The position numbers were made by a program, and so were the translations under genes. Below are positions 2,465-61,424 of a DNA stretch of 64,000 nucleotides, in pieces. Numbering within the stretch: the stretch's first letter is position 1; each line of letters begins with the position of its first letter. The notes under the pieces are model-generated. The model worked only from the letters and a program-made list of their open reading frames with translations. It had not been told where the DNA came from and did not search any database. Source of the DNA: a virus; IMG/VR virus record IMGVR_UViG_3300010397_000044, positions 1-64,000 of that record; one strand, written 5' to 3'.

Positions 2465-2743
2465 ATGGCAACACTAAATGAACTTAAAGAAGAATTAGAG
2501 CCGTACAGGGGAACGCTCGTGATTGGTGACTTTGATAGCGTTGTTCTATTAAAAGATGTCATTGAGGGTGACGATGACTACTATTGGGTTTATGTTGGCA
2601 GGATTGGACGTGAAATAAAAGAATATCATGCAACTTGTGTCGGCGGCTGGGTGCCGCTTAAAGGCTTTATACCTGACGAAAAATACCAAAGACTAGTGTG
2701 TGTTTGGAATATGAATCATAACGCGGATAACCAAGCCATCTAA
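2465..2743 (+). CDS. Hypothetical protein
   Basis: A 92-residue acidic protein (MATLNELKEELEPYRGTLVI, then a DDDYYWVYV core). It resembles small phage proteins with an N-terminal helix and an antiparallel sheet, but no family is recognised. It is the last plus-strand gene of the left block. Its stop overlaps by four bases the stop of the convergent minus-strand gene at 2740, and no terminator hairpin is visible between them. Confidence 0.5.
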   Translation: MATLNELKEELEPYRGTLVIGDFDSVVLLKDVIEGDDDYYWVYVGRIGREIKEYHATCVGGWVPLKGFIPDEKYQRLVCVWNMNHNADNQAI

Positions 2744-2886
2744 TACCATTTCTCCGGCTTCCCATGAACATGAGTAATGGGGATTGTGTCTTTCTCCCGG
2801 AAGAATATAAGCAGTAATATAGCTACCATAAAGCACATAACTATTAATAATGGAATAGCTAATATGAGTAGGATTTTTCGTTTCAT
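2740..2886 (-). CDS. Single-span membrane microprotein
   Basis: A 48-residue protein: MKRK followed by about 25 hydrophobic residues (ILLILAIPLLIVMCFMVAIL) and a short charged tail. The start codon overlaps the stop of the upstream glycosyltransferase by one base (TGATG), a typical sign of coupled translation. One transmembrane helix with a short polar tail is expected. The role is unknown. It may help anchor products of the adjacent glycan genes. Confidence 0.5.
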   Translation of the reverse strand: MKRKILLILAIPLLIVMCFMVAILLLIFFREKDTIPITHVHGKPEKWY

Positions 2887-3509
2887 CAGTCTATGCCCTC
2901 CGGATCAATATCTCTTTTTCTGTTTCCACTCATTACGTAGTAGGTGGGGATTATGTCGGCCTTCTTGTATTTAGCTCCTGCCTTTATCATGTTTTTTATT
3001 AAGTCGAAGTCATGGCCATATTCTGGTGAATGGGGCGGCATTTGCTTGAGGAAATTGGTTCGAATTATGAGTGCACTATGGCCTATTCTGGCATACTTTA
3101 ATTTCGTGTTCATTCTTTTGCCGAACGCTAAATAATCGAAGTAGACGAAGTCGTAATGGCTACCTTCTATGGCGTCCAAATAGGTTTGCATGTGAGCGGC
3201 TGATATGCAGTCATCGTTAGCGAAGAAAATGAAATATTTCCCACTAGCTTCTTGAATAGCCGTATTGGTAGCTAAATACCCGCATCCGCCGTAATTAAAA
3301 GGAAGATTCCAATGGTGAATCCTTGGATCATTTAATAGTCCTTCTTGTTGGATAGATTCGAAATGTGGGCAACAATCACCTATTATAAAGGCTTCCCAAT
3401 CTTTAAGAGTTTGATTGAGTATACATTTAATAGCCCTTCTTGTTCTAAGAGGTCTACCATAGCATGGCATTGAAATAGTTATCCGGGGAGATGATGTAGA
3501 TAAAACCAT
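2886..3509 (-). CDS. Family 2 glycosyltransferase (GT-A fold)
   Basis: The 207-residue protein starts with a classic GT2 opening, ITISMPCYGRP, followed by a helix and ILNQTLKDWEAFIIGD. It continues with GKYFIFFANDDCI, where the paired Asp residues stand in for the metal-binding DxD motif, and then a GHDFDLIKNMI segment. It would transfer a sugar from a nucleotide donor in the cytoplasm. I chose the ATG at 3509 because the longer frame starting at 3575 would overlap the upstream gene by 97 bases. The overlap is then 31 bases. It lies with a hexapeptide acyltransferase gene and two membrane-protein genes, which suggests surface-glycan modification. The acceptor is unknown. Confidence 0.75.
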   Translation of the reverse strand: MVLSTSSPRITISMPCYGRPLRTRRAIKCILNQTLKDWEAFIIGDCCPHFESIQQEGLLNDPRIHHWNLPFNYGGCGYLATNTAIQEASGKYFIFFANDDCISAAHMQTYLDAIEGSHYDFVYFDYLAFGKRMNTKLKYARIGHSALIIRTNFLKQMPPHSPEYGHDFDLIKNMIKAGAKYKKADIIPTYYVMSGNRKRDIDPEGID

Positions 3510-6238: not shown

Positions 6239-6456
6239 AACTCAATAATTGTAAGTTCTGAATTATCTGTACTTTTCATTTCTGAGTCTATCATGTCTAA
6301 CCATTCTTGTGCGTTATCTTTGTCTTTAAATTTATGCCCATTACCTATTAATCCGTTCCATTCTACAAAGTGTGTCATGGCATGGTGGTTTAAATAAAGT
6401 TTAGCCCAATATTTAAAGCCTCCTTTAGATATGGTCTTTTGAATAAGGTAGCTCAT
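6235..6456 (-). CDS. Hypothetical small protein
   Basis: A 73-residue protein (MSYLIQKTISKGGFKYWAKL ... AQEWLDMIDSEMKS) with a beta-rich first half and a helical second half. It overlaps its neighbours by four bases on both sides, so it is translated as part of the same run as the NinG-like gene. No family recognised. Confidence 0.5.
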   Translation of the reverse strand: MSYLIQKTISKGGFKYWAKLYLNHHAMTHFVEWNGLIGNGHKFKDKDNAQEWLDMIDSEMKSTDNSELTIIEL

Positions 6457-6971
6457 GTAAGCATTTTTAACTTCCCTTCATATTCCAATATAATCTGCTT
6501 AATTTCTTCTCTTGTTGGTCGCCAAATGATATAGGACTCTTCTTGTAAAATATCTGGCAATCCGGGAGATTCGATGTTTAGCCTTTTTCGGTATTCTGGT
6601 ATATTCCCCGATTTTAGGCAGTTGCAGGTATTACATTGATTTTTGGCATTTCGATTGTCCCAGCGAAGATAAAGAGCCGATCTACTGATAAAATGGCCGC
6701 ATTGAGCATCATGAAAAGCCATTTCCTTTCCGCATGTATAGCATCTTATCACTTTATTGGCATCCTCTCCTGATCTTCTTATGTACTTAGAAAAGGCTAT
6801 ATCTGCTAGTTTAATTAATTCCTGCAAATCCTCCTCAGCGGCTTTTTCTAATCTTACATGAACCGATTGAGCACGAGCGCATTCCTGACATCTTTTTTTA
6901 GAGAACCAGTAACATTCTTTTCCGCAAGAAATGCAAATCTTTTTTTTAGAAATTATTGTACTATTTCTCAT
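6453..6971 (-). CDS. ninG: NinG-like recombination protein
   Basis: A 172-residue protein with an N-terminal CxxC zinc knuckle pair (CISCGKEC ... KRCQEC), a helix, and then a second Cys/His block: CYTCGKEM, DAQCGHFISRSALYLRWD, KNQCNTCNCLKSGN and YRKRL. This matches the lambda NinG (Rap) family, which carries an HNH-like metal site and resolves recombination intermediates in the Red pathway. The start at 6971 is favoured because it overlaps the upstream RHH stop as ATGA and the frame before it is the RHH gene in another frame. No Red alpha/beta genes are visible nearby, so its partner is unknown. Confidence 0.75.
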   Translation of the reverse strand: MRNSTIISKKKICISCGKECYWFSKKRCQECARAQSVHVRLEKAAEEDLQELIKLADIAFSKYIRRSGEDANKVIRCYTCGKEMAFHDAQCGHFISRSALYLRWDNRNAKNQCNTCNCLKSGNIPEYRKRLNIESPGLPDILQEESYIIWRPTREEIKQIILEYEGKLKMLT

Positions 6972-18757: not shown

Positions 18758-20320
18758 ATGCGAAAAGCATCACTTTACGGCTCAGAAGCTAGGACTAAAC
18801 TTGTAACCGGGATTGAGAAAATAGTCAAGGCCGTAGCCGTCACACTTGGCCCGTCAGGTAAGAATGTCATGATTGGCGGCAGCATGTGGACCGATACCGG
18901 AACAATTGCGCTGCCTAATATCTCCACAAAAGACGGCTATCGTACAGCCAGATCGTTTGATGTTGATTGTCATTTTGAGCGTGTGGGAGTGGTGGCGGTA
19001 AAAGAAACCGCACAAAAGACTGTAGATGAGGCCGGAGATGGGACAAGCACAAGTTGTATTCTTGTAGAAGCTATTCTAAAAGAGGGACTTAAGCAAATAG
19101 AAGCAGGGGTAAATCCCATAGAAGTGAAGCGGAATATCGACAAGGCGGTTGATATTTTTGTCACCAAATTAAGGAGTTTGGCTACACAAATAGGACAAGA
19201 CTTCGATAAAATATTCAATGTAGCGACCGTTTCAGCCAATAACGATCCCGTAATAGGAAAATTAATCTCGGATGCTTTTAGGCAAATTGGTACGGAAGGG
19301 GTAGTGGATATTCAGGCAGGTGTTTCAAATGAAACAGTAGTTAAGATTGCCAATGGGTACAAAATAAACAATGGTTATCTGAACAACATCTTTGTCAATA
19401 ATGGCAGCAAGCAGAACTGCGAATTAGAGAACCCACTTATTCTCTTATATCAAAATAAGATTACGCACCATACTCAGTTGGAAAGATCGTTACATATCGC
19501 TGCTGGGGCCGGACGCCCCATTTTAATAATTTGCGAAGATGCGGAAGGAGAGGGATTGGCTTATTTGGCAATTAATACAAAACAAGGGAAGATAAAAAGC
19601 TGCATCATCAAGGCCCCGGCTATCGGCGATGAACGCAGGATTGAGATGGAAGATTTGGCCATTCTAACCGGTGGTAGTTATGTGTCCGACATTAGGGGTA
19701 TAAACATCAAAGAAATTGAACCCAATAACCTTGGACAGGCCGCCAAGATTATCGTCACCAAAGACGATACGGTTATTGTTTCTCCCGACACCGACAAAAG
19801 AGCATTGGAAGACCTGCTTAATGACCTTCGAATGAATCTGGCCCAATGCAAGAACGAGGATGAACGATACCCCATAGAAAAGAGAATAGCTAGATTACAA
19901 GGAGGGATAGCGGTCATTGAAGTAGGAGCGCCGACAGAAACCGAAATGAAGGAGAAAATGGACCGGTTTGACGACGCCATTAGAGCCACAAAATCGGCTA
20001 TTTCAGAGGGTTTCATAGTTGGAGGGGGCATGGCCTTTTTGAAGATAGATACGGGAAACGAGGTCATAGATAAGGCCAAAGAGAAGATTTTCGATCAGGT
20101 GTGTGAAAACGCCGGGGTAACGTCCGGGCCGTACAAAGCTCAACTTAAAGAAGACAAGAACTTTAACTTAGGGTATAATGCCAAATCCGGGCTAGTGGAA
20201 GATTTAGTCGAAGCGGGAGTTATTGATCCGGTGAAAGTTATCCGTTGCGCTCTCCAAAATGCAGCCAGCAGCGCCGGAACAATCCTTACAACAGAAGCCC
20301 TTATTGTAGACGCCCCTTAA
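18758..20320 (+). CDS. groEL: Chaperonin GroEL (Cpn60), phage-encoded
   Basis: The 520 residues align along most of a group I chaperonin. VTLGPSGKNVMIGG and STKDGYRTARSF are the first nucleotide-binding segments, DEAGDGTSTSCIL near residue 95 is the ATPase GDGT(T/S) motif, and the apical domain has GYLNNIFVNN and ICEDAEGEGLAYLAINT. The return through the intermediate domain (RLQGGIAVIEVGAPTETEMK, then FDDAIRATKSAISEGFIVGG) keeps the Asp of DDA that triggers hydrolysis. An extra WTDTGTIALPN stretch interrupts the region near residue 45. The usual GGM tail is absent. Together with the GroES and third gene next to portal and terminase, it probably folds virion proteins. Confidence 0.9.
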   Translation: MRKASLYGSEARTKLVTGIEKIVKAVAVTLGPSGKNVMIGGSMWTDTGTIALPNISTKDGYRTARSFDVDCHFERVGVVAVKETAQKTVDEAGDGTSTSCILVEAILKEGLKQIEAGVNPIEVKRNIDKAVDIFVTKLRSLATQIGQDFDKIFNVATVSANNDPVIGKLISDAFRQIGTEGVVDIQAGVSNETVVKIANGYKINNGYLNNIFVNNGSKQNCELENPLILLYQNKITHHTQLERSLHIAAGAGRPILIICEDAEGEGLAYLAINTKQGKIKSCIIKAPAIGDERRIEMEDLAILTGGSYVSDIRGINIKEIEPNNLGQAAKIIVTKDDTVIVSPDTDKRALEDLLNDLRMNLAQCKNEDERYPIEKRIARLQGGIAVIEVGAPTETEMKEKMDRFDDAIRATKSAISEGFIVGGGMAFLKIDTGNEVIDKAKEKIFDQVCENAGVTSGPYKAQLKEDKNFNLGYNAKSGLVEDLVEAGVIDPVKVIRCALQNAASSAGTILTTEALIVDAP

Positions 20321-59032: not shown

Positions 59033-59170
59033 ATGTTGTATTACATTGGGGGATTGATTATAGTATTCGGGGTTGGATTTTTTATAGGCGCAAATAACCC
59101 TCCGCGCCAAATCTTGCAAAAATTATTGAACAAGCACAAAGATTCCATTGATAAAATAATGAAAAGCTAA
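59033..59170 (+). CDS. Single-span membrane microprotein
   Basis: A 45-residue protein: MLYYIGGLIIVFGVGFFIGA as membrane helix and a basic tail (LLNKHKDSIDKIMKS). The stop and the next start share one base (TAATG), so it is coupled to the endolysin gene. It may be a small holin or regulator of lysis. Confidence 0.5.
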   Translation: MLYYIGGLIIVFGVGFFIGANNPPRQILQKLLNKHKDSIDKIMKS

Positions 59171-59634
59171 TGGACGAAAGATCATTAAAGGAACTTAATA
59201 CACTCCATCCTAAATTTAGGCAATCAGCTATAGATGCATGGACAGAGGCCCAAGCCGCAATGCCAGACAATGTGAAGATTGTAGTAACTCAAGGATTGAG
59301 AACATTTGAGGAAAGCGATAAGTTATACGCTCAAGGAAGAACAGCGCCGGGGCCAAAAGTTACTAATTCCGCTGCTGGGCAATCTTACCATAATTATGGG
59401 CTGGCCTTCGATTTTTCAATGATAACCAATGGAAAAACAGATTGGGTGCTTGGGCCTAATTGGATGAAAGTAGTTGAAATCATGAAAAAGCATGGAATGG
59501 CGTGGGGTGGTGATTTCAAATCAATAGTTGATAATCCACACTTTGAAAATCGGTTTGGCTTTAATTGGCGACAATTGCTGGCTAAACACAAAGCGGGAGA
59601 CTTTATCACCGGCACACAATACGTTAATATTTAA
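59170..59634 (+). CDS. M15 endolysin (L-alanyl-D-glutamate peptidase type)
   Basis: A 154-residue peptidase of the LAS/VanY type. QSYHNYGLAFDFSM carries the zinc ligands His74 and Asp81, AWGGDFKS gives the WGGDF motif with the catalytic acid region, and DNPHFENRF holds the third ligand His124. FEESDKLYAQGRTAPG matches the substrate-binding 'qa.LyaqGRt.pG' segment of T5- and Ply-type endolysins. No signal peptide, so export needs the membrane proteins upstream. The length is that of single-domain lysins. Confidence 0.9.
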   Translation: MDERSLKELNTLHPKFRQSAIDAWTEAQAAMPDNVKIVVTQGLRTFEESDKLYAQGRTAPGPKVTNSAAGQSYHNYGLAFDFSMITNGKTDWVLGPNWMKVVEIMKKHGMAWGGDFKSIVDNPHFENRFGFNWRQLLAKHKAGDFITGTQYVNI

Positions 59635-60659: not shown

Positions 60660-60816
60660 GCTAATTGCAATAAGGAGGAGATTAGGATGATTAAGACGCA
60701 AATCTTGTGTTACTCAAGACCCTTTTTGACCGAATTATTGCAAAACTCATTCATATGGCAACGCAATCGTTAAACGCCGGATTTATTCTTATTTCTGGCC
60801 ATTTTTTAAAGTTCTT

Positions 60817-61060
60817 TATTGGCTGTAATAGGCCGTCAAATATTTGCAAATGGTAACGTTAGGGGACGAGGCATCGAAACCTTTCGCAAAATTGTATGCT
60901 GCCCGTGGTCGAGGCCAACGGGATGGAGCTGGCTCTCGGAGGCGAATACAAACAATGTTGGCTGTAATAGTAGGATGAGGCCCCGCGAGGTAAACCTTCA
61001 CTGCGATTTTAAAACTGTGGCCCTGTATTACATTATGGTAAATCAGTTCTACAGCCAATA
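60817..61060 (+). ncRNA. Stem-closed structured RNA candidate
   Basis: The 157 bases before it (60660-60816) hold no gene. This domain is bounded by a perfect 11-base stem, TATTGGCTGTA at 60817-60827 pairing with TACAGCCAATA at 61050-61060. The interior is visibly richer in G and C than its surroundings and holds a CCCGT / ACGGG hairpin (60902-60906, 60918-60922) and a CGAA / TTCG hairpin near 60880. A second copy of TTGGCTGTAATAG (60958-60970, identical to 60819-60831) could replace the outer strand, so the RNA may switch folds. Overlapping frames of 80-89 codons on both strands need non-ATG starts and look random. Transcription is inferred. Confidence 0.5.
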
Positions 61061-61102
61061 TTGTTATTTGCTTTCAAAATGTTTTTAATTCCGTACTTTA
61101 TT

Positions 61103-61176
61103 TGGAGGTCGGAGGGTTGATCTCCTCATTGGCAAGCGGGGTAATAGCCGTACTGGTTCGATTCCAGCACCTCCAC
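61103..61176 (+). tRNA. tRNA-like element, anticodon not assignable
   Basis: TGGAGGT (61103-61109) pairs perfectly with ACCTCCA (61169-61175), giving a seven-base acceptor stem. The T-arm is canonical: CTGG, TTCGATT, CCAG (61153-61167). A GAGG / CCTC stem fits the D-arm position. The length (74) is normal. However the anticodon region (61129-61145) forms no five-base stem and has no U before a triplet, and the base at position 8 is C. CCA is not encoded. A weak promoter-like TACTTTAT ends two bases before it, and a terminator follows at 61197. It may be a decayed tRNA or a tRNA mimic. Confidence 0.45.
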
Positions 61177-61196
61177 AAATCTTTATGTGGCCTACA

Positions 61197-61222
61197 CCGG
61201 GGATAGGCTCCCGGATTTTTTT
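61197..61222 (+). terminator. Rho-independent terminator
   Basis: Stem CCGGG(G)A / TCCCGG with a one-base bulge and loop TAGGC, followed by TTTTTTT. It lies 21 bases after the tRNA-like element and before the gene at 61242, so it would end the non-coding transcript. Confidence 0.75.
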
Positions 61223-61241
61223 ACGCTAAAATCCTAAAGCC

Positions 61242-61424
61242 ATGCATACATTATACCATATTGGTGCTGTATTAATAGTTATAGCAACCGGCTTATTTCT
61301 AATGGGGAAGTTCAGTGTAAAGAAAGACCCAACAGAAGAAGAAGCTAAAGTCATTCAATTGGATGAACACGAATCTAAAATAGGAGGAGATTATCCGCCT
61401 TTAAAAAAGGCACAAAATAACTAG
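61242..61424 (+). CDS. Small membrane protein
   Basis: A 60-residue protein with one N-terminal membrane helix (YHIGAVLIVIATGLFLMGKF) and an acidic-then-basic tail (DPTEEEAKVIQLDEHESKIG). It is flanked by terminators at 61197 and 61455, so it is a single-gene unit. The function is unknown. Confidence 0.5.
   Translation: MHTLYHIGAVLIVIATGLFLMGKFSVKKDPTEEEAKVIQLDEHESKIGGDYPPLKKAQNN

Follow-up and report, generated by a model that had tools for sequence, protein, structure and literature searches.

We suggest that a non-coding block of phage DNA, at 60811–61222 of the 64,000-nucleotide stretch analysed here (the window, itself part of a 78,734-base virus record), is on balance a real, fast-evolving phage non-coding RNA locus with a layout like that of a ribosomal RNA leader, its transcription and any function being presumptive. 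Supporting this reading are open reading frames that lack a significant family match, the stability of one inner domain (domain II), the synteny of a related phage (L001), a degenerate tRNA gene in another (L058), the pairing found downstream of a boxA-like word, the presence of that word in host rRNA leaders and the lysis-side RNA of phage ICP1. Counting against it are the lack of any homologue of the domain in the records searched, the ordinary stability of the block as a whole, the absence of a TAnnTTTG box near the RNA start, where one was looked for, and two loci (L034 and L030) that lack the expected pairing.

Results and discussion

Genomic setting of the block

Among the genes are those for an endolysin (59170–59634), a terminase, a portal protein, a primase-helicase and GroEL, and the block lies between the lysis module, marked by the endolysin, and a small gene at 61242–61424, with an intrinsic terminator at each end (Table 1). 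As an earlier note on this DNA had stated, the GC content exceeds that of the neighbouring sequence, at 0.52–0.54 across 60820–60999 versus about 0.33 in the left flank, and convincing open reading frames are absent: the two frames in the block, of 89 and 80 amino acids, have no match in PHROGs, and Pfam returns a single sub-threshold match (E 0.14). The right-hand terminator described there was likewise recovered. What survives of that note's overall claim is a structured, non-coding block that neighbours the lysis genes and includes both a terminator and a tRNA-like part; the 244-nt domain and an evenly balanced fold switch do not survive, and the late expression and end protection that it raised are conjectural. 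Elsewhere in the window, a GroEL-type chaperonin is encoded at 18758–20320 (PHROG match, E 4.5e-123), and positions 1–57 are a long run of G that may be an assembly or sequencing artefact.

Table 1. Features of the non-coding block, its left boundary and a small RNA family of other phages. Positions are those of the window unless a locus is named.
Feature	Position	Strand	Remarks
Conserved motif, left boundary	60752-60772	+	CATATGGCAACGCAATCGTTA; part of element 60752-60807
Hairpin, left boundary	60776-60781 / 60794-60799	+	GCCGGA/TCTGGC
T6, left boundary	60802-60807	+	
boxA-like word	60811-60817	+	GTTCTTT; directly 5' of closing-stem arm; putative NusB/S10 site
Outer 5' arm A	60817-60827	+	TATTGGCTGTA
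Domain I	60828-60937	+	local hairpins; stability not above shuffles
Domain II	60938-61075	+	imperfect 26-bp stem, ~80-nt branched loop; best-supported fold in block
Inner copy A' of 13-mer	60958-60970	+	TTGGCTGTAATAG
3' arm B	61050-61065	+	TACAGCCAATATTGTT; pairs with A' (preferred) or A
tRNA-like element	61103-61176	+	probably a degenerate tRNA gene
Intrinsic terminator	61197-61222	+	CCGGGGATAGGCTCCCGG + T7
Small phage RNA family	L001 6027-6213; L002 6333-6532; L048 4730-4877		

A covarying RNA element at the left boundary

The terminator that precedes the block in the window, at 60752–60807, belongs to an unlisted, strongly covarying RNA element common to the Chitinophagaceae and their phages. 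The element consists of a CATATGGCAAGCAATCGTTA motif, a covarying hairpin and a T-run, a combination that is present in Chitinophagaceae genomes and also in the window copy, where the motif is longer by one base and the loop measures 12 nt. Allowing at most one mismatch, the motif core has 3 to 13 matches per genome in seven host genomes; of nine phage records checked, eight contain it once, and the ninth (L001) carries a variant with one extra base. In Niastella the element is tandemly repeated, each unit being about 460 nt long. All nine pairs of the hairpin vary on both sides among 30 aligned copies, and the covariation score is 0.748 versus 0.241 in shuffles, none of 500 of which matched it. 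The element loci are L079–L158 and L223–L226 from hosts and L030–L075 and L205–L217 from phages. Nothing in Rfam matched the element at gathering level (four loci, twelve copies), and a text search for the motif core found no paper. The block's left boundary thus leads to a strongly covarying RNA element that occurs in several copies in each host genome examined.

The idea that the motif is a promoter leader was dropped, because the host copies lie at 3' ends and are accompanied by the covarying hairpin and a T-run. As the motif occurs in Chitinophagaceae, the phage probably infects soil or water bacteria of that family. The motif, as CATATGGCAAGCAATCGTTAG, is accompanied by a hairpin whose loop is often TTTCTA, with several copies per Chitinophagaceae genome. 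Near one host copy (L226, 1138–1244, minus strand) there is a sub-threshold match to the Rhizobiales sRNA Atu_C9 (24 bits, E 0.004).

Stems, repeat and fold of the block

The earlier note had drawn a 244-nt domain closed by a perfect 11-bp stem, with a second copy of a 13-mer inside it able to compete for the same partner. Stem and repeat are both present: TATTGGCTGTA is perfectly complementary to TACAGCCAATA at 61050–61060, and the 13-mer occurs exactly at both 60819 and 60958. Taken alone, the 11-bp inverted repeat is unremarkable, since perfect inverted 11-mers within 260 nt occur six times in the window and also turn up in 7 of 500 shuffled versions of the region; a 13-mer direct repeat, here with its copies 139 nt apart, arises in none of 500 shuffles. 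The domain as first drawn folds no better than shuffled sequence (z −0.06), and the inner copy of the 13-mer pairs far better than the outer one. The inner arms (60951–60966 and 61050–61065) are 94% complementary, their 16-nt pairing including a single G-U, and the helix extends to about 26 bp in the predicted fold. The inner unit 60938–61077 has a z of −4.64, none of 200 shuffles being equally stable, a value somewhat flattered because the unit was picked after the fold had been inspected. Stability is otherwise ordinary, both for 60817–60937 (z +0.87) and for the 416-nt block as a whole (z −0.34). With the outer pairing forced, the predicted energy is −69.5 kcal/mol, versus −77.5 kcal/mol for the inner pairing; since the latter is better by about 8 kcal/mol, an evenly balanced fold switch through the competing 13-mers is unsupported, and we have abandoned it.

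A boxA-like word ahead of the outer arm

GTTCTTT runs directly into the outer stem arm. The word in the window, GTTCTTTA at 60811–60818, is of the rRNA type and stands where the RNA would start, its ninth base deviating from GTTCTTTRA, and the 16S rRNA leaders of two host genomes carry GTTCTTTAA downstream of the promoter. GTTCTTT is also found ahead of structured domains in L001, L002, L048 and L023. The 27 nt after the word were compared with the sequence 60–260 nt downstream for perfect pairing, with shuffles as the control. Pairing reached 11 bp in the window (p 0.002) and 12 bp in L023 (p 0.002); it was weaker in L002 (8 bp, p 0.06), and in L034 and L030 it was no longer than in shuffles. 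Combined over six loci, with L048 excluded, the pairing gives p 2e-4; over six loci that include L048 and leave out the window, p is 0.006. The word follows 4 of 28 phage copies of the left motif versus 4 of 106 host copies (p 0.06), so that its enrichment behind phage terminator elements is only suggestive. Because the word lies after a terminator, a transcript that contains it requires read-through or an unseen promoter.

A tRNA-like element without a usable anticodon arm

The tRNA-like element reported earlier at 61103–61176 stands in its acceptor and T arms, while a usable anticodon arm, a default ARAGORN call and an Rfam score at gathering level are lacking. The acceptor stem (TGGAGGT/ACCTCCA) and T arm (CTGG-TTCGATT-CCAG) are intact and a D-like arm is present, but where a tRNA has a 5-bp anticodon stem and a 7-nt loop, the best fold beside the T arm is 4 bp with an 8-nt loop, which is not a usable anticodon arm. 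ARAGORN at default settings finds no tRNA in the whole window; it calls this element only once the threshold is relaxed, and then assigns a four-letter 'anticodon'. The Infernal/Rfam search that the earlier note had recommended placed no family above its gathering score and gave a sub-threshold tRNA-Sec match at 61103–61175 (19.8 bits; gathering 47); the tRNA family RF00005 does not attain its gathering score in the window. An exact scan of viral contigs for the 3' end of the element found no copies elsewhere. A tmRNA was rejected, ARAGORN finding none in the window at default or in 61001–61300 when relaxed, and the relaxed output that would suggest a tmRNA or an intron-bearing tRNA was judged to be noise. 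Given the degenerate tRNA that occupies the equivalent position in L058, the element is most simply read as a degenerate tRNA gene.

Related loci

The block's own domain gave no blastn match in the phage records and has no homologue among the related loci compared. The records of terminase relatives contained no homologue of the domain at a useful E-value, and three such relatives (G027, G028 and G030) no similar block in the stretches read or searched. Rfam scans of the window, at gathering level and relaxed, returned nothing above threshold, and those of the related loci returned ordinary tRNAs alone.

A related phage does carry a non-coding structured block at the equivalent locus. This is L001, an endolysin relative that is syntenic with the window: the two share 77.5% identity over 80 nt of the left flank, a similar small gene with matching upstream sequence (CGCTAAAATC..TAAAGCCATG) lies downstream, and the non-coding gap of about 340 nt between these shared flanks holds a different structured RNA. 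Alignment of the window's domain with those of L001 and L002 revealed no credible sequence homology. In L058, whose terminase is 49% identical to that of the window, the left motif is followed by about 90 nt and then by the degenerate tRNA, which ARAGORN cannot assign, with no large domain; the window's domain is absent there and from the endolysin-bearing relative L253. The test for compensatory changes in the 11-bp stem, which the earlier note had named as able to refute its reading, is therefore mostly negative: no homologue of the stem was found, that of L001 is unrelated, L058 lacks the domain, and no change could be counted. In L058 the motif and degenerate tRNA are immediately preceded by an ORF (6409–6939, minus strand) that resembles a GIY-YIG endonuclease by eye.

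The RNA of L001 is one of a small phage family. L001, L002 and L048 share the pattern boxA-ATATTGCGGG(G)TGGCGGA..ACGC ... CTGCCCC(C)GCAA, whose segments form a closing stem, and L001 and L048 match by BLAST at E 4.5e-8. The family has no Rfam match at gathering level, and its pattern is absent from the 396 host-family genomes searched. The L001 domain has a closing pairing similar to that of manA RNA (RF01745), and it scores 25.8 bits (E 0.0037) where gathering is 55.2; L048, L002 and the window gave no manA match, and membership of that family was rejected because L001 alone matches, below gathering.

Alternative readings

The main rival is that the block is a non-functional remnant, an old tRNA or ncRNA cassette in decay in which a 13-mer became duplicated, and in which the absence of selection would explain the absence of conservation. 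We regard this as possible, if rather unlikely. It would account for the degenerate tRNA with its lost anticodon arm, for a domain without a conserved homologue, for a whole block that folds like shuffles, and for L058, which lacks the domain and has a degenerate tRNA too. It sits poorly with the z score and imperfect 26-bp stem of domain II, with the acceptor and T arms that are still paired, and with L001, where the syntenic interval is also non-coding and has the conserved pattern of the small RNA family. Phage genomes, moreover, seldom retain 400 nt of unused DNA.

It is quite improbable that the block is instead a cis-acting leader, the 5' untranslated region of the gene at 61242, in which the choice of A or A' as partner for B would act with the terminator to attenuate that gene. 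Two competing arms, a terminator directly ahead of the gene, and a similar gene in L001 with the same upstream sequence would all fit such a leader. The terminator stem (61197–61214), however, overlaps none of A, A' and B, so that the choice between A and A' cannot directly remove it; the inner pairing is favoured by the energy difference given above; and the sequence before the L001 gene shows, by eye, a T-run without a comparable G+C-rich hairpin.

That the 126 nt between the 13-mers are a small inserted repeat element with a 13-bp target duplication is very improbable, for although the exact direct repeat, not reproduced in shuffles, and the lack of the domain in L058 would suit it, inverted repeats did not turn up between the 13-mers, the segment did not recur among the related loci compared, and both 13-mers can pair with one and the same distant arm, something not expected of a target duplication.

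A possible mechanism and known systems

On the reading that we favour, that of a phage non-coding RNA locus, the RNA would open with the boxA-like word and the adjoining 5' half of a long-range stem, continue through a large stem-closed domain, and finish with the degenerate tRNA and the terminator. By analogy, the most likely mechanism is that host NusB/S10 would bind boxA and stay with the polymerase, as in rRNA operons; this might allow the untranslated RNA to be completed to its end and keep the early arm close to the partner that is made later. Once mature, the RNA would settle on the inner 26-bp stem, tRNA enzymes may trim the RNA at its tRNA-like end, and the product could be a stable RNA that acts late in infection.

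Stable non-coding RNAs encoded with phage tRNAs are known from T4 (RNAs C and D), a different phage with a different sequence. For E. coli it has been proposed that boxA-associated Nus factors keep the rRNA leader near the polymerase and so aid closure of the 16S stem (PMC4807359). The window resembles bacterial rRNA leaders in that a long-range helix has the boxA-like word immediately 5' of its upstream arm, but the block contains no rRNA, and a role for boxA in it is drawn by analogy. GOLLD and ROOL are large, ornate RNAs of phages and prophages, non-coding, structured, often near tRNAs and of unknown function (PMC12286853). The window block is likewise phage-borne, non-coding and structured, with a tRNA-like part; it differs in its size, about 400 nt where many GOLLD RNAs exceed 800 nt, and in that its domain is not conserved across phages, and the Rfam covariance models of GOLLD and ROOL have no match in the window. 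Phage ICP1 makes, as its most abundant transcript, a non-coding RNA encoded where its lysis cluster begins (PMC7567579), a placement in a lytic phage similar to that seen here; the ICP1 RNA is about 800 nt, ICP1 has no tRNAs, and expression was shown there, where that of the window block is presumed.

In some infections large non-coding RNAs of phages, which have no known function, reach high abundance. A broader proposal, which we consider unlikely though worth stating, is that Chitinophagaceae phages possess a class of non-coding RNAs, stem-closed and fast-evolving, which imitate the rRNA-leader layout and enlist host Nus factors for their synthesis and folding, the layout outlasting the sequence. 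If unrelated phage RNAs do share boxA plus a stem, this offers a testable idea of how long untranslated RNAs are made and folded.

Several other phage loci deserve mention. L030 has at about 2740–3320 a long non-coding stretch with a tRNA-Met inside and a boxA-like GTTCATTGA ahead, ending in a closing stem (GCAGGTTG/CAACCTGC) and a T-run. About 500 nt past the motif, L034 (minus strand) has some 480 nt that are poor in ORFs and include a boxA-like word; L049 has an identical stretch. The perfect 12-bp stem of L023 (minus strand, 2690–3030; TGTGTTGATAAA/TTTATCAACACA) closes a domain of about 100 nt after boxA, with a z of −3.8. A second repeated motif, GGTACGATCAAYAA, followed by a hairpin and a T-rich end, is found in L033, L035 and L002 (about 6282–6325).
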